NCBI RefSeq assembly: GCF_031326345.1
Contig: NZ_CP133671.1
Location: 5,332,001-5,396,000, forward strand
Direction: 5' to 3'
Origin: Aureispira sp. CCB-E
Lineage (GTDB): Bacteria; Bacteroidota; Bacteroidia; Chitinophagales; Saprospiraceae
DNA: 64,000 nucleotides
In this document: positions 1,478 through 60,770 of the stretch, in pieces
Layout: every line of letters begins with the position of its first letter
Position numbering within the stretch: the first letter of the stretch is position 1
Program-made: the position numbers and the translations under genes
Notes under the pieces: model-generated
What the model was told of the DNA's origin: nothing
The model's database searches: none
The model's input: only the letters and a program-made list of their open reading frames with translations

Positions 1478-1532
1478 CATTACTTCGGAATAGCAGCGTA
1501 ACTAACTAAAAGCAAAGCGCTCACGAAGTAAC
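1478..1532. repeat. Fragment of dispersed intergenic repeat family
   Basis: This gap holds an inward-facing pair, TACTTCGG near 1481 and TCACGAAGTA at 1521-1530. The 29 bases at 1502-1530 match 60614-60642 with two differences. They also match 21220-21248 in reverse complement with a few differences. Three separated near-copies in non-coding DNA identify it as part of a dispersed repeat rather than a gene-specific site. Confidence 0.7.
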
Positions 1533-1550
1533 CTAACAATATCAACACAC

Positions 1551-2432
1551 ATGTTTCGATTCACACTGACCTGTTTTATTCTATCTACTTGCTTACACCT
1601 AAAAGCGCAACAAATAGATACTATCTCATTTGTATTGACCTCTTTTAACAATATTTATATTCCTGCTCTTTTAAATCAAAAAGATAGTCTAAAAATGATG
1701 TTTCACACAGGAGAGAGTGGTGTCTCCATCATTGAAGAAGTATTTAACAAGATCGCTATTAAAAAAAATGCTACCAGTACAGAAGCCAATAGTTGGGGCG
1801 GAAAAGGGACTGCTAAATTTTTTAAAAACAACACATTCTCTATTGGGAATCATCGTTTCGATAGTCTAGTCGTATGGGTGGACAAACATTCAGGACAACT
1901 AACCGATGGTAAGTTTGGACCACTTCTTTTTAAGGGAAAAATGATTGAAATTAACTACCATGATAAAAATTTTGTTATCTATGAAAGTGTCCCGCCAAAA
2001 CAACATTTAAAACAGTTTCAAAAGTTTCGATTAACACAAGAAAAAGGCTTGTTATTTATTGAAGGAAAATTAAACATTGGGCGACAAAGGTTGCAACAAA
2101 AATTTATGATTCACACAGGCTATGGAGGAACAATTTTACTGGACGATGCCTTTGCTCAAAAACATCAATTAGGGCGTCTCTTAAAGATTACCAATGAAAG
2201 TACGCTAAAAGATGCTTATGGCAATACCTTAACAACTAAAAAAGCCGTCTTACCCTCATTCAAGATTGGGCGTACTAAGTTTAAAGCACTCCCAATTAGC
2301 TTTTTTGAAGGTTCCATTGGACGGCAAAAAATAAGCGTTCTTGGCAATGGGTTATTGAAACACTATAATATGATCTTAGATATAGAAAACAGCTTGGTGT
2401 ATTTAAAACCTAATCATCTATTTGAACAATAG
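1551..2432 (+). CDS. Retropepsin-like (aspartyl protease fold) secreted protein with HTG motifs
   Basis: 293 residues with an N-terminal signal peptide (FRFTLTCFILSTCLHLKAQ). The layout is the two-lobed retropepsin-like fold seen in many Bacteroidota: lobe 1 motif MMFHTGESGVS around residue 52 and lobe 2 motif FMIHTGYGGTILLDD around residue 188. In active family members these motifs read D-T/S-G. Here both aspartates are histidines (CAC codons at 1704 and 2112), so the usual acid-acid catalysis cannot operate. The frame is intact and the rest of both lobes is preserved. It may therefore be a pseudoprotease or binding protein, or have altered chemistry. It is convergent with the TPR gene downstream across a strong hairpin. 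Confidence 0.75.
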   Translation: MFRFTLTCFILSTCLHLKAQQIDTISFVLTSFNNIYIPALLNQKDSLKMMFHTGESGVSIIEEVFNKIAIKKNATSTEANSWGGKGTAKFFKNNTFSIGNHRFDSLVVWVDKHSGQLTDGKFGPLLFKGKMIEINYHDKNFVIYESVPPKQHLKQFQKFRLTQEKGLLFIEGKLNIGRQRLQQKFMIHTGYGGTILLDDAFAQKHQLGRLLKITNESTLKDAYGNTLTTKKAVLPSFKIGRTKFKALPISFFEGSIGRQKISVLGNGLLKHYNMILDIENSLVYLKPNHLFEQ

Positions 2433-2457
2433 ACCTTCTTAAGCCTTATATACCTAT

Positions 2458-2495
2458 ACATTAGATAGAGTCTTTAAGAAGATTCTATCTAATGT
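2458..2495. terminator. Bidirectional hairpin between convergent genes
   Basis: Seventeen-base arms 2458-2474 and 2479-2495 pair with a single G.T exception around a four-base loop. The hairpin lies between the stop codons of the converging genes at 2432 (+) and 2536 (-). The adjoining T tract is weak, so termination is inferred from stem strength and position. Confidence 0.6.
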
Positions 2496-2535
2496 TCGTT
2501 TCACAAAAGTTGTTTGCCCAGTAATCAATTGATTT

Positions 2536-3471
2536 TTATTTTTGGCAATGTTTTACTTGCAGTTGCAAAACTTCATCGCCATACATATCAGTATATCCCT
2601 GTTTGAGCGCATTGTCTAAATCCTCACAGGCTTTAGCTATTTTTTTCTTCTCAATCCAAATCAATGCTCTAATTTTATATGCATAAGGATTGCCAGGAAA
2701 GAGTTTAATTGATTTATCAATATCTTTCATAGCTGCATTTAGTTGCCCTAATTTTAATTTACTAAAACTCCGATTGCTATACCCTAAAGGCTCATTGGGT
2801 GAAATTTTGAGAGCTTGATCAAAGTACTCTACAGCCTCTTTGTGTCTGTTCAATCCTTGGTATTTAAAGCCAATATTAATGTATGCAGGAAAATACAAGC
2901 TATCAATTTCAACTACCTTAATTAGATACCTTAAGGTTTCCTCCCCTTTCCCAACTTCATCAGCTACCATTCCCAAATTGGTCAAAACGGCTAAGTTAGT
3001 AGAATCTAGTGCGTAAGCTTCCATTAAATCTTGGTAAGCCCCTTCATAGTTCATAATTCTAGTTTTTGCCCCTGCTCGGTTCGACAAATAACTAACTCGC
3101 ATTTCTTCTGTTTTTGCCAGTCGAATGGCTTCTGTATAATCTTTAATCGCATCTTCAAAGCCTCTCAAATGCAACAACAAATTAGCTCGGTCGTTGTATA
3201 ACAGTGCTTCTTCTGGAAATTTTTCTAATGCCACACCATAAATTGCATAAGCCTCTTGATAGGCTTTTAACTGAGTTTTTAACTCTGCCCAAACCGCATA
3301 ATAATCGGCTTGGTTAGGATCTAATTTAAGAGCTTGTTCAATTTCAGTTAACGCAGCTTTGTAGTTCTCTTTATCATAAAGTTCTAATGCTTTTTCAAAA
3401 TAATCGGCTGCCGTCTGAGAAAAAGCAATATTGGCAAGCAATACGTAAAAAAGACAAAGTAATGTTTTCAT
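2536..3471 (-). CDS. Secreted tetratricopeptide-repeat protein
   Basis: About 311 residues from the ATG at 3471, chosen because a signal peptide (KTLLCLFYVLLANIAFSQ) follows immediately; the 16-codon upstream extension is polar and unlikely. The mature protein is almost entirely TPR repeats of about 34 residues. Examples are NYKAALTEIEQALKLDPNQAD, read here in parts, GFEDAIKDYTEAIRL, and NRHKEAVEYFDQALKISPN. Each has the alternating small and aromatic positions typical of TPRs. Such proteins act as periplasmic or surface scaffolds. No catalytic domain is present. It appears monocistronic, with a 14-bp hairpin just upstream. Confidence 0.85.
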   Translation of the reverse strand: MKTLLCLFYVLLANIAFSQTAADYFEKALELYDKENYKAALTEIEQALKLDPNQADYYAVWAELKTQLKAYQEAYAIYGVALEKFPEEALLYNDRANLLLHLRGFEDAIKDYTEAIRLAKTEEMRVSYLSNRAGAKTRIMNYEGAYQDLMEAYALDSTNLAVLTNLGMVADEVGKGEETLRYLIKVVEIDSLYFPAYINIGFKYQGLNRHKEAVEYFDQALKISPNEPLGYSNRSFSKLKLGQLNAAMKDIDKSIKLFPGNPYAYKIRALIWIEKKKIAKACEDLDNALKQGYTDMYGDEVLQLQVKHCQK

Positions 3472-3510
3472 TGTTTTAGTTTTAGTTTGATAATTCCTTA
3501 TAATAAGACA

Positions 3511-3544
3511 AAAATCCAAAAACTCAGAATAGTTTTTGGATTTT
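3511..3544. terminator. 14-bp perfect hairpin with flanking A/T tracts
   Basis: Arms 3511-3524 and 3531-3544 are perfect reverse complements (AAAATCCAAAAACT) around a six-base loop, with T-rich sequence on the plus side and A-rich on the minus side. It lies upstream of the minus-strand TPR gene and downstream of the minus-strand nitroreductase gene, so it could end nitroreductase transcripts. Confidence 0.6.
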
Positions 3545-3552
3545 TTATCCTA

Positions 3553-3694
3553 ATACTCCGTTGATTTTTTATTTTTTCTACGAAAAACGTAAAAAAGCAT
3601 CTTGTATTAGTTTGATTACCAGTCTTTTAGTGCAAAGGTTAATAAAAATACATCTTACTGATAATCAAACTAATACGATTTTTCAACGGAGTAA
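3553..3694. repeat. Complete 142-bp copy of dispersed inverted-repeat element
   Basis: Terminal inverted repeats of 11 bases (TACTCCGTTGA at 3553-3563, TCAACGGAGTA at 3684-3694) enclose a second inverted pair of 15 bases (3604-3618 and 3662-3676, GTATTAGTTTGATTA and its complement). The element at 41808-41982 has the same nested design with related sequences. The copy encodes no protein, so it resembles a MITE-like or structured repeat. Confidence 0.75.
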
Positions 3695-3717
3695 TGTTAT
3701 CCTGCTTGTAGTCTTTA

Positions 3718-4350
3718 TTAGTCTACAATCGTAACCAAGTCATCTTTACTCTTGCGCACTTTTTCTAGGTTTACCAACCAGTCTTTCTCAGTATCTCTAT
3801 ATCCAACTGTCATCATCACACAGCTTCTAAGCCCTTTGGATCTCAAATCTAAAATTTCATCCAGTTTAGCAGGATCAAATCCCTCCATCGGAGTACTATC
3901 TACTTCTTCAAAAGCTGCTGCCGTCAATGCTGCCATCAATGCAATATAGGCTTGTCTTGCAGCATGATTAAAGTTTTCTTCAGCATCTCTCTGAGGATAA
4001 ATATTTAATAATTGCTGGCGATAATTCTCCCATCCTTCGTTCTTAAATCCACGTACTTCATTGACCAAGTCAAACATTTTATTAATTCGATCTTCTGTAT
4101 ACGTATCCCAAGCAGCAAAAACCAATAAGTGAGAACAATCCGATACAACAGATTGATTCCAAGCAATTGCCTTGATTTTTTCTTTTACCTCTTGGTTGGT
4201 AACTATAATAATTTCGAAAGGTTGTAATCCACTAGAAGTTGGAGCCAAATTGGCGGCCTCTATAATGGTATCAATTTTCTCTTGAGGTACCTTTTTACCA
4301 TTCATTGCTTTGGTAGCATAACGCCAATTTAACTTGTCTAATAATTCCAT
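3718..4350 (-). CDS. NfsB-like nitroreductase family oxidoreductase
   Basis: 210 residues from the ATG at 4350 (MELLDKLNWRYATKAMNG); the 17 extra upstream codons are not typical of the family. It is a flavin-dependent NAD(P)H nitroreductase-fold enzyme. The N-terminal WRYATKAM contributes to FMN phosphate contacts, and APTSSGLQPFEIIIV matches the A-P-S-S-x-x-x-Q-P-W/F motif. Further on, an AALTAAAFEEVDSTPMEGFDP segment, quoted in part, corresponds to the G/DSTPMEGF region. Length is normal for a cytoplasmic homodimer. Substrates cannot be told from sequence (quinones, nitroaromatics and others are used by the family). It is divergent from the oxidoreductase gene at 4645. Confidence 0.88.
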   Translation of the reverse strand: MELLDKLNWRYATKAMNGKKVPQEKIDTIIEAANLAPTSSGLQPFEIIIVTNQEVKEKIKAIAWNQSVVSDCSHLLVFAAWDTYTEDRINKMFDLVNEVRGFKNEGWENYRQQLLNIYPQRDAEENFNHAARQAYIALMAALTAAAFEEVDSTPMEGFDPAKLDEILDLRSKGLRSCVMMTVGYRDTEKDWLVNLEKVRKSKDDLVTIVD

Positions 4351-4644
4351 TTTTATTGTTTGTTCTTTAATGATTAAATTATAATACTCCGAAACAAGCA
4401 AAACTTAAATTGGTTCTAGAAAAATTATTTTGCACAAAGACTTAACATTTTATTAACTCATATTTCCTGTTGCCATTCCCCATAACACCTCCATTATCTA
4501 TCTAATTTTTCCATTCTTAGATAAGAGGCTAAACCATGAAAGATCTTACAACAAATAGAACTTTGTTAAATCTTAGCCATTTTTTTATATTAAAATTGTA
4601 TATTGTAGAATAACTATTCAATCTATTTTAAATACTACGCTACT
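4351..4644. other. Divergent intergenic region
   Basis: 294 bases between divergent start codons of the nitroreductase and the desaturase-like gene. It is AT-rich. No convincing TTG-N19-TATCTTTG promoter, RNA or repeat was recognised, although promoters for both genes must lie here. Confidence 0.4.
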
Positions 4645-6231
4645 ATGGTTCAGTCTTACAAAAAGAAACACAAACTTGCTGCATCGTACGATACTATCAT
4701 TATAGGTTCGGGGATAGGTGGTTTAACTACTGCTGTTTTATTAGCTCAGAAAGGTCAAAAGGTCTTGGTGTTGGAGCGTCACTATACAGCAGGTGGTTTT
4801 ACCCATATTTTCAAGCGCAAAGGTTATGAATGGGATGTTGGAATTCATTATGTGGGTAGTATGGAAAAAGAATCTAGCATTCTCAAAAAAATATTTGACT
4901 CTATCACTGACCAACAACTAAAATGGGCAGATATGGGAGCGGTATACGATCGCATTGTCATTGGGGATAAAACTTATGATTACGTCAAAGGTGTTGGTAA
5001 CTGGACAGAAAAAATGATTGGCTATTTCCCTGACGAAGAAAAAGCAATTCGAGCATACGTAGATTTAATTTTTAAGGTTAGTGCTACCAGTCGCAATTTT
5101 TTTGTTGAAAAAACAATGTCTCCAATTTGGAGCAAATTATTGGGATGGTTCTTGCGAAAGCCCTATCTCGAATATGCTAGAAAAAGCACCCATGACGTAC
5201 TCGGTTCTCTAACCCAAAATCAAGAATTAATCAAAGTATTGGCAGGTCAATATGGAGACTATGGTCTACCGCCCAAACAAAGTAGTTTTGCCATGCATGC
5301 CTCTTTGGTCAGACACTATTTTTCAGGGGGCTTTTTTCCTATTGGTGGATCTTCTCAAATTGTAGAAACGATTGCTCCCGTATTAGAACGTTTGGGATCT
5401 ACTATTCTTATTAGTGCTGAAGTTGACCAAGTAGTTATAGAAAAGAATACGGCTGTTGGTGTTCGAATGAAAGATGGAAAAGTATTCAAAGCAAAACACA
5501 TTATCAGCAATGCGGGGCTATACACTACTTACAAAACTTTGCTTCCTGCTCCTATCGTGCAAAAACATCGTTTGCAACAACAACTTAACAAAGTACAACA
5601 TTCTGTAGCTCATGCTTGTCTCTATATTGGTTTAGATGGAAGCCCTGAAGAATTGCAGTTGCCCAAAGCCAACTACTGGCTCTACCCTGACAAACTGAGT
5701 CATGATGAATGTGTTGAGAATTATTTAAAGGATCATAACGAGCCTTTTCCTGTTGTTTATATTTCTTTTCCTGCCGCAAAAGATCCTGATTGGAACAATC
5801 GCTATCCTGGTAAAAGTACAATTGATATTATCACACTCGTTCCTTATGAAACATTTGAAAATTGGGATGGAAAACGATGGAAAAAACGAGGTGAAGACTA
5901 TGAAGCACGCAAGGAAAAAATTGCACAACGCCTCTTAGAGATACTATACAAGAAAGAACCTCAACTAAAAGGAAAAGTCGATTACTATGAGTTGTCTAGT
6001 CCATTAACAACAAAGCATTTTGTCAATTATGAAAAAGGTGAGTTATATGGTTTGGAACATACTCCAGAACGATTTGAACAAAAGTTTCTACGCCCAAGAA
6101 CGCCTATCAAAAACTTTTACTTGACAGGGCAAGATATCACTACAGCGGGCATTGGTGGAGCAGCCTTTGCTGGTCTGTTAACTGCTTCTACTATTACTGG
6201 TGATAATATTGCAAAAGAATTGATGTCTTGA
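4645..6231 (+). CDS. CrtI/retinol-saturase-like FAD oxidoreductase
   Basis: 528 residues. An N-terminal Rossmann motif IIIGSGIGGLTTAVLLA (GxGxxG at residues 21-26) is followed by the second-strand LVLERHYTAGGFTHIF. This is typical of the phytoene desaturase, carotene isomerase and all-trans-retinol 13,14-reductase group. The closing LTGQDITTAGIGGAAFAGL is the conserved C-terminal FAD-contacting segment of the same family. Length fits the group. No carotenoid synthesis genes (crtB, crtE, crtY) are adjacent, so the substrate is undetermined. A retinol-saturase-like reductase is the closest guess because of the HYTAGG and WDVGIHYVG motifs. Likely cytoplasmic, membrane-associated. Confidence 0.82.
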   Translation: MVQSYKKKHKLAASYDTIIIGSGIGGLTTAVLLAQKGQKVLVLERHYTAGGFTHIFKRKGYEWDVGIHYVGSMEKESSILKKIFDSITDQQLKWADMGAVYDRIVIGDKTYDYVKGVGNWTEKMIGYFPDEEKAIRAYVDLIFKVSATSRNFFVEKTMSPIWSKLLGWFLRKPYLEYARKSTHDVLGSLTQNQELIKVLAGQYGDYGLPPKQSSFAMHASLVRHYFSGGFFPIGGSSQIVETIAPVLERLGSTILISAEVDQVVIEKNTAVGVRMKDGKVFKAKHIISNAGLYTTYKTLLPAPIVQKHRLQQQLNKVQHSVAHACLYIGLDGSPEELQLPKANYWLYPDKLSHDECVENYLKDHNEPFPVVYISFPAAKDPDWNNRYPGKSTIDIITLVPYETFENWDGKRWKKRGEDYEARKEKIAQRLLEILYKKEPQLKGKVDYYELSSPLTTKHFVNYEKGELYGLEHTPERFEQKFLRPRTPIKNFYLTGQDITTAGIGGAAFAGLLTASTITGDNIAKELMS

Positions 6232-6405
6232 GACTAAAAAATTAAGGCTGGATTTTTCTTTTCAAACAATACAACTCATTCAAAAAAAGCAAACTTCAGA
6301 AACTATACGAACTAAAAAATAGTTATATTTATACTTTGCTGCATGACCAAATCACATCATTTTGATTATTAAAAAGATACGCTCTTATTGCCTAAAATAT
6401 TAAAA

Positions 6406-7287
6406 ATGACTTTAAAAGATAAATATATAAATCCTCTTACAGATTTTGGTTTCAAAAAACTTTTTGGAGTTGAACCTAATAAAGAGCTTTTAATTGATTT
6501 TCTCAATCAATTGCTCCCCTCTATCCATCAGATTAAAAACCTTACTTATACTAAAAATGAGCACTTAGGGAGCAGTGAATATGAAAGAAAAGCCATCTTT
6601 GATTTGTATTGTGAGAGTGAATCTGGCGAAAAATTTATTGTAGAAGTGCAAAAAGCTAAACAAAATTTCTTTAAAGATAGATCGGTCTATTACTCTACTT
6701 TCCCCATACAGGAACAAGCAAAAAAAGGGGATTGGAATTTTAAATTAGCAGCTGTTTATACAATTGGTATCTTAGACTTTATTTTTGATGAACACAAAAC
6801 TCAAAATGAGTTATTACATACTGTTAAACTAAAAGATCAAAATGGCAATGTATTTTATAATAAACTAACCTACATCTATATTGAGCTTCCTAAATTCACT
6901 AAGTCCGATAACGAGTTGCAATCTAAGTTTGATAAATGGTTGTATGTTTTTAGACATCTAGCCAACCTGCAAAACCGCCCTGTTGTGCTTCAAGAAAGAA
7001 TTTTTAAAAAACTCTTTGAAGCAGCTGAAATCGCTAAATTTACTCCCAAAGAAAAAGAACAATACGAGGAAAGTTTAAAATATTATCGCGATTTGAAAAA
7101 TGTTGTTGATTCTTCTAAAGAAGAGGGAATTAAGGAGGGCAGAGAAAAGGGTATTAAAGAAGGAATCAAGACAGGAATCAAGACAGGTAGAAAAGAAGTA
7201 GCCAAAGAAATGAAAGCAGATGGTTTTTCCTTAGAAAAAATAGCCCGATATACAGGTCTCTCAATTGAGGAAATCCAAAAACTATAA
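6406..7287 (+). CDS. Rpn-family PD-(D/E)XK nuclease / transposase-like protein
   Basis: About 293 residues from the ATG at 6406 (MTLKDKYINPLTDFGFKKLFG). The start at an upstream TTG would add MPKILK and is less likely. The DFGFKKLFG opening and the FDLYCESESGEKFIVEVQKAKQ region (read as F-D-x-x-C...EVQ, carrying the D/ExQ nuclease core) place it in the Rpn or PDDEXK_2 group. These enzymes promote RecA-independent recombination. The C-terminal tail is a low-complexity GIKEG/GIKTG tract encoded by short direct repeats at about 7135-7195. It then ends in a small helix (FSLEKIARYTGLSIEEIQKL) typical of the group. No terminal inverted repeats were found, so autonomous mobility is unsupported. Confidence 0.85.
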   Translation: MTLKDKYINPLTDFGFKKLFGVEPNKELLIDFLNQLLPSIHQIKNLTYTKNEHLGSSEYERKAIFDLYCESESGEKFIVEVQKAKQNFFKDRSVYYSTFPIQEQAKKGDWNFKLAAVYTIGILDFIFDEHKTQNELLHTVKLKDQNGNVFYNKLTYIYIELPKFTKSDNELQSKFDKWLYVFRHLANLQNRPVVLQERIFKKLFEAAEIAKFTPKEKEQYEESLKYYRDLKNVVDSSKEEGIKEGREKGIKEGIKTGIKTGRKEVAKEMKADGFSLEKIARYTGLSIEEIQKL

Positions 7288-7344
7288 AAGCCTCCTTGTG
7301 GTGTTATATCCCCAAATATTATTTTTAACTAAACTCCATACCAA

Positions 7345-7638
7345 ATGAAACAACCCATCTATTTTATATTTCTATTATTCCTATTCCTTCATAGCTGCGA
7401 TCTATCGCCACAAGGTCCTAGTGATGAAGCACTAAGTAAGATGACTCGTAGTGAAAAATGGGCAAGTTTAGAAAAGGGAATGTCACAAGAAAATGTCCTC
7501 CGAATTTTAGGAAAACCCAGCTCCCAAAAAGTTTGGTCAGGGCAAACTACTTATAAATTTGAATGTTTTACCTGTTCTGCTACCTTCAGCGAAGACGGGG
7601 AATTATGGTCTTGGTTCGGTCCTTCAGAAAGTCTATAA
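7345..7638 (+). CDS. BamE/SmpA-like small lipoprotein
   Basis: 97 residues beginning with a hydrophobic signal and lipobox (FLFLHSC), so a lipoprotein. The mature domain has WASLEKGMSQENVLRILGKPS followed by a beta-rich YKFECFTCSATFSEDGELWSW, both read in parts here. This is the GMS-x-x-x-V-x-x-x-LGxP pattern of SmpA/OmlA (BamE-like) domains. A CFTC pair could form a disulfide. It lies 57 bases after the nuclease gene on the same strand, perhaps by chance. The family includes assembly factors and inhibitor-like domains. A genuine BamE role is not claimed. Confidence 0.7.
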   Translation: MKQPIYFIFLLFLFLHSCDLSPQGPSDEALSKMTRSEKWASLEKGMSQENVLRILGKPSSQKVWSGQTTYKFECFTCSATFSEDGELWSWFGPSESL

Positions 7639-7724
7639 TACAGTCATAAATATTTCTTACCCATTTTTAAGAGGCTTGAAAGCATTTCTTATCTTTAGTC
7701 AATGAATAAGACCGTCCTGTCATT

Positions 7725-7732
7725 TAACTTTG
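7725..7732 (+). promoter_or_regulatory. Candidate -7 element TAACTTTG
   Basis: TAACTTTG fits the Bacteroidota -7 consensus TAnnTTTG and sits 45 bases before the DUF4386 start codon. No clear TTG was found at the expected distance upstream, so support is partial. Confidence 0.35.
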
Positions 7733-7777
7733 TTGTATAAACCTTAAAACAATCAAAAACTACAAACAAAGCTTATT

Positions 7778-8467
7778 ATGACACTTGCACTAAAAATGCC
7801 TTTACCCCAACAACGTTCTGCTGCCTTAACAGCTGGTCTTTCCATTATAACCATGGCAATCCTTGCTATTTTTTCTATTGGTTATGCCTTTGGTCAATTA
7901 ATTATCTTGGAAGATGCGATTATGACCATGAATAACATTCAACAAGACATAAGCCTATTTGTATTAGGGATAATAGGATTAATCCTTATCTTCATTTGCG
8001 ATTTACTTGCCTCTTGGGGGCTATGGGGATATTTTAAGCGATTCGACGAAACTAGGTCCAAGTGGATGGCTGGATTTAGATTGGTTTATACGATCATTCT
8101 AGGAATTGCCATTACAACTTTGGTTTTAATCCTGCCCCACCTCCCAAATTCAACCTTATCGGCTTCTGAGGTCTTGGATCAAATTCAGAACTTCTATACC
8201 ATATGGTCATTTGGGTTAATCATCTTTGGTCTTCATTTGCTTTTTTTGGGATTTATTGCTCTACGAGAAACTCCTGTACCCAAAACAATCAGTTGGCTTT
8301 TGTTAATTGCTGCTGTTGGTTATCTATTTAATAATATTGCCAGTTTGAGTAGCGACCATTATCTACACTACAAGCCAATTGTAGAAATGATTTTTAGTTT
8401 ACCAATGATTTTTGGGGAGCTTGGGCTCGGTATTTGGCTTATTGTTCAAAACAATAAAAAAAGCTAG
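7778..8467 (+). CDS. DUF4386-type integral membrane protein
   Basis: 229 residues with about six hydrophobic helices, separated by short loops. The N-terminal pattern (PQQRSAALTAGLSIITMAIL), the central LASWGLWGYFK, and a C-terminal LPMIFGELGLGIWLIV match DUF4386, a family of unknown function common in Bacteroidota and Firmicutes. It is convergent with a Crp/Fnr-type regulator, the stops being 5 bases apart. DUF4386 genes often lie near regulator genes, but no functional link can be read from sequence. A second in-frame ATG lies six codons later. Confidence 0.8.
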   Translation: MTLALKMPLPQQRSAALTAGLSIITMAILAIFSIGYAFGQLIILEDAIMTMNNIQQDISLFVLGIIGLILIFICDLLASWGLWGYFKRFDETRSKWMAGFRLVYTIILGIAITTLVLILPHLPNSTLSASEVLDQIQNFYTIWSFGLIIFGLHLLFLGFIALRETPVPKTISWLLLIAAVGYLFNNIASLSSDHYLHYKPIVEMIFSLPMIFGELGLGIWLIVQNNKKS

Positions 8468-8472
8468 ATGCG

Positions 8473-18854: not shown

Positions 18855-19022
18855 CATTACTTCGTGGGAAAATCGCATCAGTTTGATTATCAATAGAGTA
18901 TACTTTTGCTACTTAATTTCTTAAAGGGTTGATAATCAACGGCGAAGCCCTCACACGGTAAATTGATGCAAAGATGCTTTTTTAGTTTTTCACAAAAAAG
19001 CTAAAAAATCCACGAAGTACTA
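18855..19022. repeat. Copy of dispersed intergenic repeat with TACTTCGTGG ends
   Basis: TACTTCGTGG at 18858-18867 and its complement at 19010-19019 bound about 162 bases. Inside are a TTGATTATCAA/TTGATAATCAA pair and an AGTTTTTCACAAAAAAGCTA block. The right end, read in reverse, aligns with 46474-46519. The gap 18730-19112 holds no gene. Confidence 0.7.
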
Positions 19023-21194: not shown

Positions 21195-21330
21195 TGATTA
21201 GTTTTACTACGCTGTGTCGTACTCCGTGAGCGCTTTGTTTTTAGTTAATTTTATTATTCCTTGTGGTCATGAGCTAGCAAACTAGGTTCGCTGCTATGGT
21301 GTCGTTTCAATAAATTAATACTATAGATGA
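21195..21330. repeat. Diverged copy of dispersed intergenic repeat
   Basis: The block TACTCCGTGAGCGCTTTG at 21220 continues to 21248 and matches, in reverse complement, 1502-1530 and 60614-60642. Further right, GTTCGCTGCTATGGTG near 21288 resembles the TTCGCTGCTACTACGTGG block near 60487. Boundaries are approximate. Confidence 0.6.
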
Positions 21331-25173: not shown

Positions 25174-25261
25174 ATTTGATTTTTATTTAATTTGAGTTTA
25201 CATTACTTCGTGGAAAAATCGTACGATAGCGCATTAAGTTCAAATTAAATAAAAATCAAAT
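25174..25261. repeat. Perfect 22-bp inverted repeat ending next to a start codon
   Basis: Arms 25174-25195 and 25240-25261 are exact reverse complements (inner ATTTGATTTTTATTTAATTT). The 44-base loop contains ATTACTTCGTGG, the core of the dispersed repeat family. The right arm stops one base before the ATG at 25263. If transcribed through, the start codon would sit at the foot of a long stem. Confidence 0.85.
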
Positions 25262-28259: not shown

Positions 28260-28460
28260 TAATAATCAACAAGTTAAAAAACTTATTACATTTTACATTA
28301 AGCCTTTGATTATCAACTGCACAGCACTCACGAAGTAGCAGCGAACCGAGCTATGCGAGCTCACGACCGAAGGGAGTAACAAAGCTAACTACCATTTTAT
28401 AACACTATTAAATTAATACTTCGTGGCAATCAAATTAATACAATTTCTCCACGAAGTAAT
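28260..28460. repeat. Copy of dispersed intergenic repeat
   Basis: Two blocks match the element at 60474: 28260-28276 equals 60528-60544, and 28305-28343 matches 60572-60610 with one difference in 39. A further block GCTCACGACCGAAGGGAG is shared with 60707 onward. The right end carries TACTTCGTGG (28417-28426) and CCACGAAGTA (28449-28458) as an inverted pair. The gap 28227-28470 has no gene. Confidence 0.85.
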
Positions 28461-31519: not shown

Positions 31520-31745
31520 CTAGTTCATTATCAATACTATTTATTTTAGTAGTTCATTGATAGACACATTACTTTGTATATAGTCGCATTAATTCGATTA
31601 TCAAGAACAAAAGTTAAAACATATAAGTAAACCCAGTATCGTAAGTTCATGACTGTAAGAAATGGCAAAACGAACCAATCCACGACCACGGCGTAGCAAC
31701 GCAACTAAGTATTATTAACCAATACGAAACAAAGTTACTGGAGAG
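31520..31745. repeat. Diverged repeat-rich gap upstream of terC
   Basis: The 350-base gap before terC holds TAGTAGTTCATTGA (near 31547), close to the AGTAGTTCGTTGA element end, and CATTACTTTGTATATAGTCG (31568), close to CATTACTTCGTGG-AAAATCG at 18855 and 25201. CCACGACCACGGCGTAGCAA lies near 31679. It is a degraded member of the dispersed family. Confidence 0.5.
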
Positions 31746-41758: not shown

Positions 41759-41807
41759 AGTTCATCTGCCTTCGGCATTTTAAAAATGTTAGCATATTTT
41801 TGATTAG

Positions 41808-41982
41808 TAGTTCGTTGATTAGTTCGCTACGCTCATGAGGGCGCAAGCTTAGTTGTTTACTTTTTTCACCAAAAAGATAAAAAAGCACATTTATATTAGT
41901 TTGATAATCAAAATTTTAACACAAAACGCAACAAAGATACAACTTACTGATTATCAAACTAATAAAGTTTTTCAACGAACTA
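41808..41982. repeat. Complete 175-bp copy of dispersed inverted-repeat element
   Basis: Terminal inverted repeats TAGTTCGTTGA (41808-41818) and TCAACGAACTA (41972-41982) enclose a 17-bp inner inverted pair (41894-41910 and 41948-41964). The segment 41847-41900 matches 60644-60698 in reverse complement, with few differences. No coding potential. It sits upstream of the Crp/Fnr gene and downstream of metK. Confidence 0.85.
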
Positions 41983-42021
41983 TTGTTTGATAGTAAAAAC
42001 AATATACTATAAACGAACAAA

Positions 42022-44294: not shown

Positions 44295-44603
44295 ATTGGA
44301 TCATAATAAATAGTTGCTAGAATCATATTCGCTTGCTTTCTTGTTCTTTATTCAAACAATAAAAACGACATACCAAGCTTTGCCTAGCTCAGTCAAAAGG
44401 AGCTAAATAATTAGCAAACTACTAAATAAAAGTATGTGAATAGCGATATGAAATAAGCAATCGTTCAGAAAAAATGATACTTTTGCAACAATGCATTTAG
44501 TTTTGAGTTCAATATAAGAATAAATTCACTTTGGTTAGTAGTTAGCTACGCTGCTAGCTATTATTTGGTGCAACGTTACTTTTAAAATAAATCAATATAC
44601 GCC
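44295..44603. repeat. Intergenic region with short repeat-family fragment
   Basis: 309 bases between divergent genes. A fragment TAGTTAGCTACGCTGCTAGC at about 44537-44556 resembles TAGTTAGCTTCGCTGCTAC at 60479 and TAGTTAGCGACATAGCTAC at 50735. Nothing else is recognised. Confidence 0.45.
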
Positions 44604-46467: not shown

Positions 46468-46525
46468 TATTAGTACTTCGTGGATTTTTTTTGCAAAAAA
46501 CTAAAACATCCACAAAGTAATGCAA
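46468..46525. repeat. Short copy of the dispersed repeat (hairpin form)
   Basis: AGTACTTCGTGGATTTTTTT on the left and the matching ATCCACAAAGTA on the right form a hairpin. Read in reverse, the right end of the copy at 18855-19022 aligns with this unit, including the A/T-rich core. Confidence 0.7.
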
Positions 46526-50785: not shown

Positions 50786-50795
50786 ACTCTTACGG

Positions 50796-54870: not shown

Positions 54871-54899
54871 GTAATCGTTCAAAAAATAATAATTGCATC

Positions 54900-55439
54900 A
54901 TGTCCACATTCACAATAAACATTCGACAAGAGACCCCACTAGATCATGCAGCTGTATTTGAACTAATAGAACAAGCATTTGCCAATATTGAATACAGCGA
55001 TCACAAAGAACAATTTTTGGTAGAACGATTAAGAAAGTCAGAAGCTTTCGTTCCAGAACTTTCTTTGGTTGCTGAAGTAGATGGGGCGATTGTAGGGTAT
55101 ATTTTAGTTTCCAAATTGAGCATCAAAAACCAGACGTCTAGTGTGGAATCATTAGCGTTAGCTCCCGTAGCTGTTTTGCCCGAGTTCCAACAAAAAGGCA
55201 TTGGGGGGCAACTCATTAGAAAAGCACATATTATTGCTCAAGAATTAGGGTTTAAATCAATTATTTTACTAGGTCATGCGGAGTACTATCCTAAATTTGG
55301 CTATCAAGCATTACACACCTTTTCTATAACATATCCTTTTGATGTTCCCAAAGAAAATGTGATGGCAATTGAGCTAGAAAAAGGAAGTCTTTCGAATGTA
55401 TTTGGTATGGTTGAGTATCCCAAAGAGTTTTTGGAGTAG
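54900..55439 (+). CDS. YhbS-like GNAT acetyltransferase
   Basis: About 179 residues from the ATG at 54900 (MSTFTINIRQETPLDHAAVF); the earlier start at 54816 overlaps the preceding gene and is rejected. SLALAPVAVLPEFQQKGIGG carries the V-x-P-x-x-Q-x-x-G-I-G acetyl-CoA motif, and LLGHAEYYPKFGYQ is the characteristic YhbS-type signature. It is 29 bases after the esterase-like gene, so the two may be cotranscribed. Substrate unknown. Confidence 0.9.
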   Translation: MSTFTINIRQETPLDHAAVFELIEQAFANIEYSDHKEQFLVERLRKSEAFVPELSLVAEVDGAIVGYILVSKLSIKNQTSSVESLALAPVAVLPEFQQKGIGGQLIRKAHIIAQELGFKSIILLGHAEYYPKFGYQALHTFSITYPFDVPKENVMAIELEKGSLSNVFGMVEYPKEFLE

Positions 55440-55462
55440 CATACTCCTTACTTAGTTTAACT

Positions 55463-57808
55463 TTATTTCAAAGCAAACTCCAAAGGCACCTTTAAGGTCA
55501 CAACAAAATTTCTACCTTGTTCTGGAATTTCTAGAATGCGATAGCGACTAAGGTGGTTCAAATAAGCTGTGTTCAACAAGTTTTGAGCTTGCACACCAAT
55601 TTGTATCACCTGCTTCCGAATGCGAATTTTAAACCCTAGCCCTGCATCTAACAGATGATAAGCTGGTGTTTCAGGCTCGTTTCGATCCGTCCGATTTTGA
55701 GCAAAAGAATAACGATGCGTAATTTGAGCATAAATATTTTCTAAAAATCCCAGTTTTTTCCACTCGTATCGCACTTCTGACAAAATGCTAGCTGGCGGCG
55801 TAAAAGGCAATCCTAATTGAGTTTGTAAATTAACATTCCAAACATATTCATACCCTTGCCTAAGGGTTAACTCAGGTACAGGTTGCCAAGACCAATCTAA
55901 TTCACCTCCGGTATAAATCGCATCTGTTTGCACGTATTGATACAATTGCCCTGCTTCTGGCAGTGTTGAAAACTTTCCTGTTGGACTCAAATAAATATAC
56001 TGCTGAAAATAATTTCCAAATCCCGTTATAGTTGCTTGGACTGTCTTCCACTTTATATGACTAGATAATTCTAATTGGTAACCATGTTCTGGCTTTAAGT
56101 CAGGCGTTCCCATTTCATGTCGAAACGTACCGTGATGAATCCCATTCGCTGCGGTTTCAGAAGGGTAAGGCACTCGATAACTTTTCCCCAAATTTACTTG
56201 AAAATTCCAAACATCTTTCCGTAAGACATAATTCATTCCCAAAGCTGCCGCATAGTTAAAAAAATGTTGCTGATTCATCGCTACCTTGGGTAGGTATTGT
56301 ATGGTTTGGCGTTCACCGTAGACTGCTTGTGCATACTTGTCATTATAATTATAAGCATAATCTAGTCGAAGTCCCGCACTAAGTACCCATCGTTTATTCG
56401 GTTTGAATGTACCAAACCAATATCCCCCAGTACGGACGGTCTGAAAGTTGGGCAATAAAAACTCAAAACCTGCCCGTTGATTGATTTGATATTGAAAGCT
56501 TCCTCCATACACATGTTTCCATTTCTCATTGACATTTTGAGTAAAGATCAAATCACCACTAACCGTTTGCAGGTTCAACTGCAAGGCGACATCAGAATTA
56601 TCTGTTGGGGGCAATTGATGATAATGCGGGAAGGAGTATTCTTGTCGTAAATTATTCTGATAACCGATATTCAATTGCAAACGATGTTGTTTGATAGTCA
56701 AATCATTGTTCCAAACCAAACTAAAATGATTCACTTGTTGACTTGGCACATCAATATCTCGGTCGTTGCCATCTATATCCAAAGCATAGGATCTAGGAAT
56801 TCCTACGGCTCCTGAAAAAATACCTGCATTCAAATAATAATGACTAAAAGTCAACCTGCTTACGCCCCAATTTTTTATCAGCCCCAAACTAGCTCTTATA
56901 TTTCGCTCTTTGCCAGCTGTATTTTTGAGCTGTTGATTATATATTGGTAAAACAAACTCATTGTATACAAAAACTTCCGCAGGAACTCTATAATCTCCAA
57001 AGTCCTGATAACTAAAACGAGCATCAAAGAAAAAATCAGATATTCGCCCTGCTACACTAGCAGACATTCCAGCATGCTGGTTATTGGTTTTATAAATTCC
57101 CAATAAACTGGCTTTAATTCTATTTTTGGGAATAATCTTATTGGGCAAAATATTCACAGCGCCCCCTAATGCATCTGAACCATAGCGCAAAGAAGCTGCC
57201 CCCTTAATAATCTCAATTCGATCTACTCCAAATTGATCAATTTCTAGCCCATGGTCAGCGCCCCATTGTTGTCCTTCTTGTTTGATACCATTATTGTTGA
57301 CAACAATTCGATTAAATGACAATCCACGAATAACAGGTTTGGCGATTCCCACTCCAACATTGATAGCATTTACTCCAGTTACTTTTTCTAATGATTTCGC
57401 AAAAGTTCCCTGTGCATTCTCTTCAAAAAACTGCCCATCAAGACTAGTCTTTTGGTCTATACTCAACGCAGCTTCTTCGTTGACCACAATAGCAACATCT
57501 TTGTAATTAGTTGCTGCAAACTCAATATTTACCAACACAGAAGCCCCTTTTTCTACTAGTATTTTTTCTTGAATGCTTTCAAACCCCACATAGCTATATT
57601 GTAATGTATATGCACCTTCTTTTACCTCAAATTCATAATAGCCTTGGGCATCTGTTAATGTTGTTAATGACAACTCCATCAACTCAACAAAAACATTAGC
57701 AAGTATTTGATTGTCCTCTGTTGTAACCTGTCCATGTATGCGACTATTTTGAGCAGCAACCAAACCAAAGCAAAAAAATAGGAGGAATATGGTAGTTATT
57801 AATTTCAT
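55463..57808 (-). CDS. TonB-dependent outer-membrane receptor, possibly zinc-related
   Basis: 781 residues from the ATG at 57808 with a signal peptide (KLITTIFLLFFCFGLVAAQ). A carboxypeptidase-regulatory-like domain (SRIHGQVTTEDNQILANVFV) is followed by the plug domain and a 22-strand barrel that ends in an aromatic strand (FVVTLKVPLEFALK). The plug has the motif QEGQQWGADHGLEIDQFGVD, seen in zinc- or metal-uptake receptors of the ZnuD type. The upstream region carries two copies of the GCAAC-N3-GTTGC palindrome, which fits metal-dependent repression. Substrate otherwise unproven. Confidence 0.92.
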   Translation of the reverse strand: MKLITTIFLLFFCFGLVAAQNSRIHGQVTTEDNQILANVFVELMELSLTTLTDAQGYYEFEVKEGAYTLQYSYVGFESIQEKILVEKGASVLVNIEFAATNYKDVAIVVNEEAALSIDQKTSLDGQFFEENAQGTFAKSLEKVTGVNAINVGVGIAKPVIRGLSFNRIVVNNNGIKQEGQQWGADHGLEIDQFGVDRIEIIKGAASLRYGSDALGGAVNILPNKIIPKNRIKASLLGIYKTNNQHAGMSASVAGRISDFFFDARFSYQDFGDYRVPAEVFVYNEFVLPIYNQQLKNTAGKERNIRASLGLIKNWGVSRLTFSHYYLNAGIFSGAVGIPRSYALDIDGNDRDIDVPSQQVNHFSLVWNNDLTIKQHRLQLNIGYQNNLRQEYSFPHYHQLPPTDNSDVALQLNLQTVSGDLIFTQNVNEKWKHVYGGSFQYQINQRAGFEFLLPNFQTVRTGGYWFGTFKPNKRWVLSAGLRLDYAYNYNDKYAQAVYGERQTIQYLPKVAMNQQHFFNYAAALGMNYVLRKDVWNFQVNLGKSYRVPYPSETAANGIHHGTFRHEMGTPDLKPEHGYQLELSSHIKWKTVQATITGFGNYFQQYIYLSPTGKFSTLPEAGQLYQYVQTDAIYTGGELDWSWQPVPELTLRQGYEYVWNVNLQTQLGLPFTPPASILSEVRYEWKKLGFLENIYAQITHRYSFAQNRTDRNEPETPAYHLLDAGLGFKIRIRKQVIQIGVQAQNLLNTAYLNHLSRYRILEIPEQGRNFVVTLKVPLEFALK

Positions 57809-57812
57809 AATA

Positions 57813-57843
57813 CAAAGATAATCCATTTGCAACAGTGTTGCAA
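57813..57843 (-). promoter_or_regulatory. TonB receptor promoter TTG-N20-TATCTTTG
   Basis: On the minus strand TTG (57843-57841), a 20-base spacer, and TATCTTTG (57820-57813) match the Bacteroidota consensus. The -7 element ends 4 bases before the ATG at 57808, so the transcript is expected to begin at or just within the start codon. The upstream 24 bases of the longer frame lie in the promoter. Confidence 0.8.
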
Positions 57844-57863
57844 AAATAATGCAACAAAGTTGC
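57826..57863. promoter_or_regulatory. Two tandem GCAAC-N3-GTTGC palindromes (candidate operator)
   Basis: GCAACAGTGTTGC (57829-57841, extended to TTTGCAAC/GTTGCAAA at 57826-57844) and GCAACAAAGTTGC (57851-57863) repeat the same half-sites. The first lies in the spacer of the TonB receptor promoter; the second is between the two divergent promoters. A metal-responsive repressor is a plausible ligand, but this is inferred from the receptor type. Confidence 0.6.
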
Positions 57864-57879
57864 GTTTAAAAATAAATCT

Positions 57880-57909
57880 TTGATACCATTAAATTACTTG
57901 TTATCTTGG
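57880..57909 (+). promoter_or_regulatory. mcrC promoter TTG-N19-TATCTTGG
   Basis: TTG at 57880-57882 and TATCTTGG at 57902-57909, one base from the -7 consensus, with a 19-base spacer. It is divergent from the TonB receptor promoter, 37 bases apart, and 23 bases upstream of the mcrC ATG. Confidence 0.65.
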
Positions 57910-57931
57910 TCGCATAAAGACACCATTTGTG

Positions 57932-59167
57932 ATGAAAACCAGTAACTACATACAAGTATTTGAACACCAAGTATTGCGAGTTGATCAACAACAATTGACC
58001 GTACAGCAGTTTGATGCATTGGCTTATTTTAATGAGCAACACGATCAAAAATACTTTAGTCTGCTACACAAAGGTGTTCGCTTTCGCCAATATGTTGGAG
58101 TGTTGCAAGTTGGAGAATTAACCATTGAAATTTTACCCAAAACAGATCAACATAGCCACAGTCCCCAAAATTGGCAGAAGGTGCTATTAGATTTGCTGCA
58201 TGCTTGCGAATTTCTCAAAGTTGATGCTTTGACCAAAGCCCCTTTGCAGCTAAAAACAAGTCCATTGCTTTGGCTTTATATTGAGCTTTTTGTTCAGGAA
58301 ATAGAACAATTATTATCACAAGGTTTGCAAAAAAATTATCGCAAACAGAGCCAAAATGCCCACCACTGGAAAGGACAAGTTAACTTTGCCAAACAATTGC
58401 AAAAAAACCTCACACAACCACATCAAATTTACATCAGTCATCAAACTTATGATTACCAACATCCCATCCATCAAGTACTGTATAAAGCGTTAAACATTAT
58501 CGCACAATTCTGGATTGACCATAACTTAAAAAAGAAAATCCAGTATCTTATCAAGGCGTTTCCCAAGCAACAAGAAATTGTTGTCACAGAAACTCTATAC
58601 AACCAATTATACGCTGCTCCCAAATTCAGAAAATACCACGCTGCTTTGGATTTAGCTCGAATGATCACCTTACAATACAGTCCTGATATAAGATTGGGTA
58701 ATTGCCCTGTTTTGGCGATTTTATTTGATATGAATCAACTATTCGAACAATACATCCAACAACAACTAAAGAAAACACTAGACAACAGTTGGCAAGTCAA
58801 GGCGCAGGCTTCCAAGCGTTTTTGGGCAAATCGAAACCTTCGCCCAGATATTTGGTTGAGTCACGAGGGCAATAATTATATTTTGGATACCAAATGGAAG
58901 ATTTTAAAACGCCCCTCTCCTTCTGACGAAGATTTGCGACAAATGTATGCCTATAATCACAATTTCAAAGCTAGCAAAAGCTTATTGATTTACCCCAATG
59001 TTTTTGATTTGTCTCAACGCAGTGCCGCTTATGCGCAACCCATTTTAGTACAAGGCAAAGCCGTTGAGCATTATTGTAAGGTTATTTTTGTTAATGTTTT
59101 GAATAAAAAAGGTACCTTAAACACCAATATTGCTCAAGATATTATCCAACATTTAGACCTCGACTAG
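57932..59167 (+). CDS. mcrC: McrC nuclease subunit of the McrBC restriction system
   Basis: 411 residues from the ATG at 57932; the GTG three bases earlier would give one more residue. The N-terminal half has the EHQVLRVDQQQLT and GVLQVGELTIEILPKTD features of McrC. The nuclease core at about residues 303-320 is LRPDIWLSHEGNNYILDTKW, with a PD...D-x-K signature, so catalytic residues are intact. McrC cleaves DNA only with GTP-bound McrB. Here McrB is 4.7 kb upstream with three other genes in between, and mcrC has its own promoter. The membrane-protein gene follows 39 bases downstream. Confidence 0.92.
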   Translation: MKTSNYIQVFEHQVLRVDQQQLTVQQFDALAYFNEQHDQKYFSLLHKGVRFRQYVGVLQVGELTIEILPKTDQHSHSPQNWQKVLLDLLHACEFLKVDALTKAPLQLKTSPLLWLYIELFVQEIEQLLSQGLQKNYRKQSQNAHHWKGQVNFAKQLQKNLTQPHQIYISHQTYDYQHPIHQVLYKALNIIAQFWIDHNLKKKIQYLIKAFPKQQEIVVTETLYNQLYAAPKFRKYHAALDLARMITLQYSPDIRLGNCPVLAILFDMNQLFEQYIQQQLKKTLDNSWQVKAQASKRFWANRNLRPDIWLSHEGNNYILDTKWKILKRPSPSDEDLRQMYAYNHNFKASKSLLIYPNVFDLSQRSAAYAQPILVQGKAVEHYCKVIFVNVLNKKGTLNTNIAQDIIQHLDLD

Positions 59168-59206
59168 GAAACTCTTTAAATAGATAAATTATTTTTAAGA
59201 CTGCTT

Positions 59207-60388
59207 ATGACCACTGTTTTGCCTTCTGAAACAACCACACACACACCAATAAGTATTTGGACCATTCGCATTATTACACTGGCATTTTTTGCTCAAATGC
59301 TCCTGTCAACAAATCTATGGTTTCCCTATGATCGTTCTTATCCAACAATTCCGCTACTCCCTTTTCTTAGTTTTAGTTTTGGTGCAACACTGACGCCCCT
59401 GCTCAGTGGTTTATTTTTGGGGTGTTTTAGTTGGGCTAGTTGTTCTCCAAAATGGAGAGAACAGGCACTTTGGATAGGTATCATTAGTCTATTCTTGTTA
59501 ATTCTGGAGGATATCAATCGCTTTCAAGCTTGGGTCTATATTTATACTACTTTGTTGAGTATTGTTGGTTGGAATTGGCGGAAAAAACAACCTCAACAAT
59601 TGCGTCTTAGCTTACAATTTACGATGGCAATGGTTTATTTTTGGACAGGTGCTCAAAAATTAAACATTCAATTTATCACAGATGTCTATCCTTGGCTTGT
59701 CAAAGTCTTTGAAGCTACAAAATGGCTAGCAGAGTACCCTAACTTAGGCTATGGAGTTGGCTTGTTTGAAATTTTACTTGGAATAACTTTATTAATTCCC
59801 AAAACTCAAAAAATCGGAGTGTTACTTGGAACAGGATTACATCTAGGAATCTTGATTTTGCTTATAAGTGACGAATGGAACAGCGTTGTTTATCCTTGGA
59901 ATGTTGCCATGATTGCATTGCTTTTTACCTTGTTTTGGAAAAAAGAAAACGACGACCTTCCCTCCTCAGAATCACTCCCTATGCGTCCCAACTTAGGAAT
60001 TATTATTTTATTTGGAGTACTTCCATTTTTTGATTTCTTTCAACTCATCCCCCACTGCCTAGCACTAGGCATGTACTCTGGCACCTCAATGGAATGTGAT
60101 TTAATTCTTGATGATAATGGTCGGGCAAATTGCGTTCCTCCCAAATTACACGAGAAATTGCTGTACCAATCAGACACTCAATCTATCCTATCTTTAGACG
60201 ACTGGGGTGTCGAGGATTTGAACATCCCACCTTTTGCTTCTGAGCGAGTTTATAGAGCTGTAGCCAAAGAATTTTGCCAATGCTCTCACTCCTACCAAGG
60301 CTATGCAGAATTTTACTATCCTGAACGCTGGAAAGATGAAGATCGACAATTAGTTGTCTCTTGCCAAGAGCTACTTCAAGAAGATTGA
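59207..60388 (+). CDS. HTTM/DoxX-like integral membrane protein
   Basis: 393 residues with about eight hydrophobic helices, a soluble loop after helix 7 (KKENDDLPSS) and a C-terminal cytosolic or periplasmic region of about 120 residues. That region contains MECDLILDDNGRANCVPP and CQCSHSYQGYAEFYYPERWK, with several cysteines. The helix pattern FTMAMVYFWTGAQKLNIQFI recalls the HTTM/DoxX-type membrane domain found in lipid or redox proteins. No catalytic residues are certain. The start is 39 bases after mcrC, so cotranscription is likely. Confidence 0.6.
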   Translation: MTTVLPSETTTHTPISIWTIRIITLAFFAQMLLSTNLWFPYDRSYPTIPLLPFLSFSFGATLTPLLSGLFLGCFSWASCSPKWREQALWIGIISLFLLILEDINRFQAWVYIYTTLLSIVGWNWRKKQPQQLRLSLQFTMAMVYFWTGAQKLNIQFITDVYPWLVKVFEATKWLAEYPNLGYGVGLFEILLGITLLIPKTQKIGVLLGTGLHLGILILLISDEWNSVVYPWNVAMIALLFTLFWKKENDDLPSSESLPMRPNLGIIILFGVLPFFDFFQLIPHCLALGMYSGTSMECDLILDDNGRANCVPPKLHEKLLYQSDTQSILSLDDWGVEDLNIPPFASERVYRAVAKEFCQCSHSYQGYAEFYYPERWKDEDRQLVVSCQELLQED

Positions 60389-60407
60389 TGATTCTAAAAA
60401 AAGAAAA

Positions 60408-60432
60408 GGCATTCTGCATCAACCAGAACGCC
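60408..60432 (+). terminator. Weak hairpin after the membrane protein gene
   Basis: GGCATTCTG (60408-60416) pairs with CAGAACGCC (60424-60432) with one mismatch, 19 bases after the stop. A short T tract is not evident, so support is modest. Confidence 0.35.
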
Positions 60433-60473
60433 CATTTCTTAACCATAACAAACTTCTATCTTTGATAAGTAGC

Positions 60474-60770
60474 TATCAATAGTTAGCTTCGCTGCTACTA
60501 CGTGGTCGTTAAAAAACTTTATTAACTTAATAATCAACAAGTTATAGATTCATTGTGTTTTTCGTTAAAATTTTGATTATCAACTGCGCAGCACTCACGA
60601 AGTAGCAGCGCAGCTAACTAAAAGCGCAGCGCTCACGAAGTAAACTAATATAAATGTGCTTTTTTATCTTTTTTTGGTAAAAAAGTAAACAACTAAGCGA
60701 TAGCGATCTCACGACCGCAGGGAGCTACCACGAAGTAGCACCGTAGGTAATCAACGAACTACTAAACTAT
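60474..60770. repeat. Largest (about 300-bp) composite copy of the dispersed repeat
   Basis: This gap contains nearly every block seen in the other copies: TAGTTAGCTTCGCTGCTAC (60479), the 28260-type block (60528-60610), a 1502-type block (60614-60642), the 41847-type block (60644-60698, reversed), a CTCACGACCGCAGGGAG block, CCACGAAGTA near 60728, and TCAACGAACTACTAAAC at the right end. The end TCAACGAACTA equals the terminal repeat at 41972. The gap 60433-60775 has no gene. Confidence 0.85.

Follow-up and report, generated by a model that had tools for sequence, protein, structure and literature searches.

The dispersed repeats that fill many intergenic gaps in a 64,000-nucleotide stretch of the Aureispira sp. 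CCB-E chromosome (contig NZ_CP133671.1, positions 5,332,001 to 5,396,000; hereafter the window) are likely, though well short of certainly, the product of a two-layer mobile system, composed of a miniature inverted-repeat transposable element (MITE), termed M1, and of short hairpin units inserted 3' of T-tracts. An earlier note, made from the sequence of the window, had described a family of shuffled blocks; the family is real, but its two-layer structure, a MITE backbone carrying inserted units, had been overlooked. Thus, the term "MITE-like" used in that note fits the 146-bp backbone (inverted ends, 6-bp duplications, presence/absence between strains), while the recurrent motifs (CTCACGAAGTAGCAGCG, CCACGAAGTA and others) turned out to be separate units of 20-39 bp inserted in MITEs and in each other.

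The genome of the window strain (7.39 Mb, two contigs; Saprospiraceae) was compared with that of CCB-QB1, a strain of the same species represented by a 180-contig draft, one protein of which is 100% identical to a window protein from end to end, at ~99.4% identity over aligned blocks and across 355,102 + 138,146 + 335,463 = 828,711 alignment columns (~0.83 Mb, sums of BLAST pieces). In this alignment, insertions of M1, a 146-bp palindromic element flanked by 6-bp target duplications, are directly seen: seven full-length copies are found in one of the two strains only, six of them in CCB-QB1 (at 5309440, 5355492, 6372994 (5 bp readable), 3643426, 3800738 and 3831475) and one in the window strain (5329219), and four of the seven were recovered by an automatic empty-site test requiring exact flanks. 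M1 is therefore a MITE by its terminal inverted repeats, fixed-length target duplication and occupied vs. empty sites. Its three subfamilies are set apart by their ends (TAATACTCCGTTGA, TAGTAGTTCGTTGA and TAGTACTTCGTGGA), and in 1.218 Mb, 37 copies between 53 and 373 bp in length show an exact 6-bp duplication (shifted control, 0). No parent element was detected: in the 1.2 Mb of the window genome and the 0.84 Mb of CCB-QB1 scanned at spacings of up to 4 kb, no two ends with an exact duplication are separated by more than 373 bp. A second, unrelated MITE, M3 (156 bp), is represented by three copies found in CCB-QB1 only (5409409, 5423823 and 6462446).

The M1 ends also bound very small elements, including two that occur only in CCB-QB1, one of 45 bp (M1 ends plus unit S1, exact duplication TCCTAT) and one of 24 bp with a 4-bp duplication, as well as further ones of 28 bp (locus L033) and 26 bp (in the 3.6-3.9-Mb block), for which five shifted controls gave 0. 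Old elements of this size may be internal deletions, e.g., between two S1 copies of one M1. For the strain-specific ones, a transposition that pairs two ends on duplex DNA would be hard to picture if they moved at their present size.

The second layer consists of precise inserts at recurring M1 slots, namely 7, 14, 26/29, 32, 61, 116 (mirror of 61), 130 and 138 (mirror of 7), larger inserts being nests of units; M3 carries in its slot 74 the same unit as found in M1. Seven unit types are distinguished by length: S6 (20 bp), S1 and S2 (22 bp each), S7 (26 bp), S3 (34 bp), S5 (36 bp) and S4 (~38-39 bp). With at most two mismatches, S1 has 381 copies genome-wide, compared to 0 for a reversed-pattern control. 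At looser limits, the matches amount to 16 (S3), 7 (S4), 4 (S5), 8 (S6) and 30 (S7), all with a reversed control of 0, as well as to 36 vs. 1 for S2 and 87 vs. 7 for S1 (up to five mismatches). Scored unit matches avoid genes, with 0 of 136 (some places being scored under two types) inside open reading frames (ORFs) of at least 120 aa, which make up 82% of the 898 kb tested.

Among nine genomes of the genus Aureispira, S1 copies number 381, 396, 79, 197 and 130 in five, and the other four have none. Beyond the genus, distribution figures rest on a stricter S1 pattern with the outer pair left open and at most one mismatch, which is found in 6 of 150 Saprospiraceae genomes, or 5 of 112 genera (control, 0), and in 1 of 395 genomes of a phylum-wide draw, this one being the window genome itself and the draw including five other genomes of the family; a looser search (up to three mismatches) yielded matches in 53 of 150 family genomes, most at the level of the reversed control. 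Units occur in unrelated hosts. In a genome of another genus (G069), an S1-type unit sits in one arm of a different palindromic repeat at loci L134 and L143, and the opposite arm shows the empty target. At two other loci of that genome (L137 and L141), an S1-type unit is followed by a hairpin-rich block (CCTGCCTGCCAGCAAGCTGGCC...) common to both, suggesting further unit types there.

Unit-length presence/absence differences between the two strains number 19 in the aligned columns. Sixteen units are present in the window strain only (6261624, 6324677, 6331661, 6342074, 6409261, 6459256, 6459397, 6546096, 5403435, 3625317, 3646274, 3646401, 3665309, 3666650, 3672818 and 3686532) and three in CCB-QB1 only (6272174, 6579828 and 3865253). 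Sites 6331661 and 3686532 have 1-7 bp of other change and 6272174 has one extra base; the count excludes complex changes at 5392493, 3832298, 3613720/3613766, 6586776 and 3696992, an S3/S5 swap in block C, indels of 12-18 bp, and whole insertions of MITEs and insertion sequences (IS). Among 24 orthologous M1 pairs (block A 71358, which is without M1 sequence, being excluded), at least one unit is carried by 18 copies in the window strain and by 13 in CCB-QB1, compared to none of the seven strain-specific full-length copies (P = 7e-4 against the 18 of 24); within CCB-QB1 taken separately, the contrast is 13 of 24 vs. 0 of 6 (P = 0.02). Since units are seen in shared but not in strain-specific full-length M1, they were mainly acquired after M1 landed, older copies having had more time for any change.

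S1 can be read as AGC-TNC-GCT, GC, TAC-TNC-GTG, G, i.e., as two mini-hairpins with TNC triloops (GNA on the other strand); DNA mini-hairpins closed by a GNA triloop are unusually stable. Its loop centres are variable (G44 T22 A21 and T34 G34 A16 C3 of 87), and other positions are mostly conserved. A circular permutation of S1 and S2 was also considered and set aside, as the pair-of-hairpins reading accounts for both. In the main covariation set of 60 distinct S1 copies from five genomes (window strain, G069, G105, G111 and G123), paired cells amount to 92.8% vs. 85.6% in shuffled data, cells changed on both sides to 18 vs. 5.0, and the covariation score to 0.250 vs. 0.130 (each reached in 0 of 500 shuffles). 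When copies are anchored on hairpin 2 and hairpin 1 is left free, its middle pair is Watson-Crick in 23 of 36 (14.7 expected from shuffling; 6/5000). The outer pair, left open in the search pattern, is C-G in 18, A-T in 3, G-C in 1 and G-G in 1 of 23 copies from four other genera, so that 22 of 23 are paired vs. a shuffled mean of 15.4 (2/20000). Among all 25 two-mismatch S1 matches in genome G001, 14 are compensatory, of four kinds and in both hairpins (7 of 17 distinct copies, P = 5e-10). The inner pair of S3-type units is complementary in 16 of 16 (G-C, C-G or A-T), and with an open anchor it is paired in 11 of 13 distinct copies (1/5000). Compensatory substitutions, which the earlier note had proposed looking for, are thus seen in the stems of S1 and S3/S5-type units; for S1, the signal is clearest when different Aureispira species and other genera of Saprospiraceae are compared. 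The accompanying idea of a structured-RNA repeat holds as far as a structured nucleic acid is concerned, the active form of which may be DNA or RNA.

With respect to target, S1 copies with up to three mismatches are preceded by TT in 54 of 63 cases, and in at least 58 of the 63 the next base is T. As the last base of a unit is G and a T comes after it, integron-like recombination at G^TT was considered as well, and set aside. A comparison of T counts in empty and filled slots gives a gain of TT for S2, S3, S5, S6 and S7 and of T for S1, the boundary in the T run being approximate. We propose that M1 would be a non-autonomous palindromic MITE moving with 6-bp target duplications, and that the 20-39-bp units, each made of one or two mini-hairpins with 2-3-bp stems and a TNC loop (GNA on the other strand), would insert as complete units immediately 3' of T-tracts, with TT added by most types and with MITEs already resident and earlier units as putative landing sites. 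Following its first insertion, a unit would probably be carried by ectopic gene conversion into the corresponding slot of further M1 copies; this sequence of rare insertion and subsequent spread within slots is proposed from slot-specific unit variants and from the ordinary substitution level of pairs differing by a unit (see below). The hairpin as substrate, the two-step spread and an enzyme acting in trans are all parts of the scheme that we infer. A more specific version is offered tentatively, as possible rather than probable: the 20-22-bp double mini-hairpins may be mobile themselves, recognised in folded form by a Saprospiraceae activity and inserted 3' of T-tracts, and the 24-45-bp M1-like elements may likewise move as hairpins, as in duplex form they would be too short for two transposase-bound ends to meet easily.

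Several observations weigh against this picture and have to be set beside the rival explanations. No enzyme was found among the two kinds looked for, Y1 transposase and reverse transcriptase, the latter being a poor candidate with one match in the window genome and none (E ≤ 0.001) in CCB-QB1 or the unit-bearing G105. On the structural side, the numbers of S1 pairs with two-sided change (2; 414/500) and of pair types (10; 249/500) are not above shuffles, two-sided change in the 60-copy set is confined to the first hairpin, and the other two hairpin-1 pairs are not significant in the hairpin-2-anchored test. The second hairpin of S7 is without an outer pair in 21 of 21, open-anchor covariation tests of S2-type units are not significant, and nearest-neighbour DNA folding energies of eight unit sequences are ordinary (z from -0.28 to 0.93). 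One of three strain-specific M3 copies has a unit, so units also travel with MITEs. Moreover, loop 2 is G in 18 of 21 slot-130 units vs. 9 of 48 elsewhere (P = 2e-7), and slot-specific variants of this kind are better explained by descent or conversion than by insertions made independently. The 24 M1 pairs have more substitutions inside (70/3935) than in their flanks (19/2880), indicating that conversion (or faster change) occurs. These last two points are what would be expected if units were immobile now, as old parts of M1 lineages whose strain differences arise only from ectopic gene conversion among M1, an explanation that we hold to be rather unlikely. It also draws on one orthologous pair with S3 in slot 14 of one strain and S5 in the other, along with 13 substitutions, and on the 35-bp junction of site 6409261, which is present at two further places of the window genome. 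Nevertheless, the 11 M1 pairs with a gap of at least 12 bp are not more substituted (25/1874, 1.3%) than the 13 without such a gap (45/2061, 2.2%, or 32/1815, 1.8%, without the swapped-unit pair); four of the 11 have no internal substitution, and two are complex (blocks B 53236 and C 706). The empty site at 6409261 has no more than 5 and 9 bp in common with the donor context examined, that of the further place other than 1581995, and conversion among M1 cannot put units into M3, other units or repeats of other genera.

The draft state of CCB-QB1 raises a different concern, since 16 of the 19 differences are absences in this 180-contig assembly (16:3, P = 0.004), and lineage activity and draft collapse cannot be separated for all sites. 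Many of these absences might be assembly errors produced by short-read bubble removal merging M1 copies, which we consider improbable in view of the three units found in CCB-QB1 only and of seven window-strain-only sites (6409261, 6459256, 6459397, 5403435, 3646274, 3666650 and 3686532) judged safe as lying within ~17 bp of unique flank or in unique context, where bubble removal with words of at least 21 should not act. Ancestral units lost by precise deletion between flanking T's are very improbable: a hairpin with short TT repeats is a setting for replication slippage, but all seven strain-specific full-length M1 copies are unit-free, so that the moving form looks unit-free, and nested units imply an order of insertion. 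Least credible of all are REP/RAYT or IS200/IS605-like elements moved by a Y1 transposase, which would share with the units an intergenic location, short hairpins and hundreds of copies; Y1_Tnp went unmatched in the window genome, although it was detected in 5 of 14 control genomes, and S1 shows no strand preference relative to replication, either in full counts (186/195) or by GC-skew half in sampled regions (6+/5- vs. 24+/28-, P = 0.74). Viral carriage was likewise considered: IMG/VR has two exact S1 matches, which look like chance as they fall within long ORFs of a GC-rich (64%) stretch, and one query each against phage and plasmid collections gave no match. Insertion of units 3' of T-tracts into MITEs, followed by spread within slots, remains our preferred reading.

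Within the window, scans with the unit and MITE models located family pieces in all ten gaps named in the earlier note (marked strong or weak below, except for the lone M1 end at 25201), along with the element at 44536:

1483..1529, minus strand: degraded S1 (1483-1504, 4 mismatches) and S7 (1506-1529, 0 mismatches), a composite; model scan, strong.
3551..3696, plus strand: M1a MITE of 146 bp without units, exact 6-bp duplication TTATCC; strong.
18855..19022, minus strand: M1c MITE of 168 bp with a 22-bp S2-type unit in slot 61 (S2 match at 18938-18959, 5 mismatches), exact duplication TAACAG; strong.
21221..21304, plus strand: S7 (21221-21244, 1 mismatch) and degraded S1 (21283-21304, 5 mismatches); model scan, weak.
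25201..25223, minus strand: M1 end fragment only (M1 positions ~124-146); model scan.
28315..28460: S2 (28315-28336, 1 mismatch) and S4 (28344-28380, 0 mismatches), minus strand, with an M1 end (28428-28460), plus strand; model scan, strong.
31686..31707, minus strand: degraded S1, 3 mismatches; model scan, weak.
41805..41985, plus strand: M1b MITE of 181 bp with a 34-bp S3 in slot 14 (core 41821-41852), exact duplication TTTGAT; strong.
44536..44563, plus strand: 28-bp M1-like element, M1 ends plus one mini-hairpin, TTTGGT on both sides; five shifted controls 0.
46471..46506, plus strand: M1c-type end of a shortened element; model scan, strong.
60477..60764, minus strand: composite M1b, 288 bp long, one mismatch in the duplication, with the units S1 (60484-60505, plus), S2 (60582-60603, minus), S7 (60618-60641, minus), S5 (60693-60726, minus) and S1v (60728-60749, minus); model scan, strong.

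The M1b copy at 41805 (5373810 in the genome) is absent from CCB-QB1, where a 6-bp end remnant suggests deletion, and was therefore left off the strain-specific list; the composite at 60477 has a 202-bp CCB-QB1 version with complex differences. The lone M1 end at 25201 lies within a 27-bp inverted repeat (25174-25261, 93% complementary, 34-nt spacer) that is neither M1 nor unit sequence.

The block identities quoted in the earlier note were reproduced (1 difference in 39 between 28305-28343 and 60572-60610; 27 of 29 matching between 1502-1530 and 60614-60642). Its three additional fragments fared unequally: 44536-44563 proved to be a complete M1-like element (28 bp) between exact 6-bp repeats, 50739 is near chance (6 mismatches), and 12043 is an M1-end-like stretch by eye only, with no scan match. 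A genome-wide search with gap 60389-60775 (387 bp), along the lines suggested there, recovered 121 matches at E ≤ 1 from the window genome; at E ≤ 0.01, 6 of 9 genus genomes were matched, window genome and sister strain included; by 12-mer counts in a 464-kb sample, the family blocks stand out among other repeats. Copies are thus genome-wide with conserved ends, rather than local and without them, and Rfam 15 has 0 matches at gathering score in the window, which speaks against a named RNA.

Other mobile sequences were encountered in the strain comparison. An IS-like element of 1446-1466 bp (ends CATGAGTCATCCCGAATTT) is present at 6394985, 6437593 and 3718245 of contig C1 of the window strain, at sites occupied in CCB-QB1 by a palindrome of 26-32 bp, as if terminator-like palindromes were targeted and replaced. 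Another MITE of ~254-257 bp (CAGCGGTTCTAACGATAAACGGAATT...) at 6298993 and 6580096 of this contig repeats 10-13 bp of flank; its likely parent is a 1422-bp element at 5305060, which has similar ends and a 9-bp repeat. The window strain also has a tandem duplication of ~1.36 kb at 5407671 of the same contig, which CCB-QB1 does not have in that form.

As for known systems, searches of open-licence literature yielded, by titles and abstract openings, nothing on Aureispira repeats or on such units in Bacteroidota. The Nostoc SDR elements (Elhai 2008) are reportedly 21-27-bp repeats found within minitransposons and nested in themselves, some with covarying stems, and moved by an unknown mechanism; to our knowledge, their movement is still an open question. 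The units share the reported features (~20-30 bp, dispersed at high copy, in minitransposons, self-nested), this likeness being one of description, across different phyla; unlike for SDR, unit-length differences were here read base by base between two strains. Double-hairpin elements of fungal mitochondrial DNA consist of two hairpins each, are nested, and are mobile by inference; compared by description, the units are bacterial, have much shorter stems with triloops, and occupy fixed MITE slots.

Bacterial MITEs, including ERIC, NEMIS and Nezha (PMC3733652), resemble M1 in inverted ends, target duplication, intergenic location and lack of coding capacity; M1 differs in that the part scanned yielded no parent transposase, and in having members down to 26-53 bp with exact duplications and slots filled by foreign units. 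One of the closest parallels is offered by the GC clusters of yeast mitochondria (GC42 and relatives), short palindromic hairpins of AT-rich intergenic regions that have flanking repeats of 2-3 bp, are present in some strains and absent from others, and show merging and shuffling of units (PMC4478555). Hairpin units, flanking repeats, strain presence/absence and unit shuffling are all common to the two systems, and the ACTCCTTCGGGGT that GC clusters share may itself be read as a CC-TTC-GG hairpin. GC clusters are mitochondrial, with an AG target and 42 bp (GC42) (PMC4478555), whereas Aureispira units are chromosomal, T-tract-directed and 20-39 bp long, and, unlike GC clusters, lie mostly in MITE slots. 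The units would thus work like GC clusters and double-hairpin elements, with which they share compensatory changes but not the mitochondrial location, and we do not file them as members of either. How elements of 20-50 bp move is presented as an open question for GC clusters (PMC4478555). The mechanism becomes testable here, in two strains of one species with 19 unit differences (~170 by extrapolation, should the rest of the genome behave similarly), empty slots that can be recognised, a target in T-tracts and hairpins that covary in several genera; in genomes of this kind, 20-bp differences may be blurred by short-read assembly. If the proposed mobility is true, the units would rank with the smallest mobile DNA of bacteria and be their counterpart to the GC clusters of yeast mitochondria.

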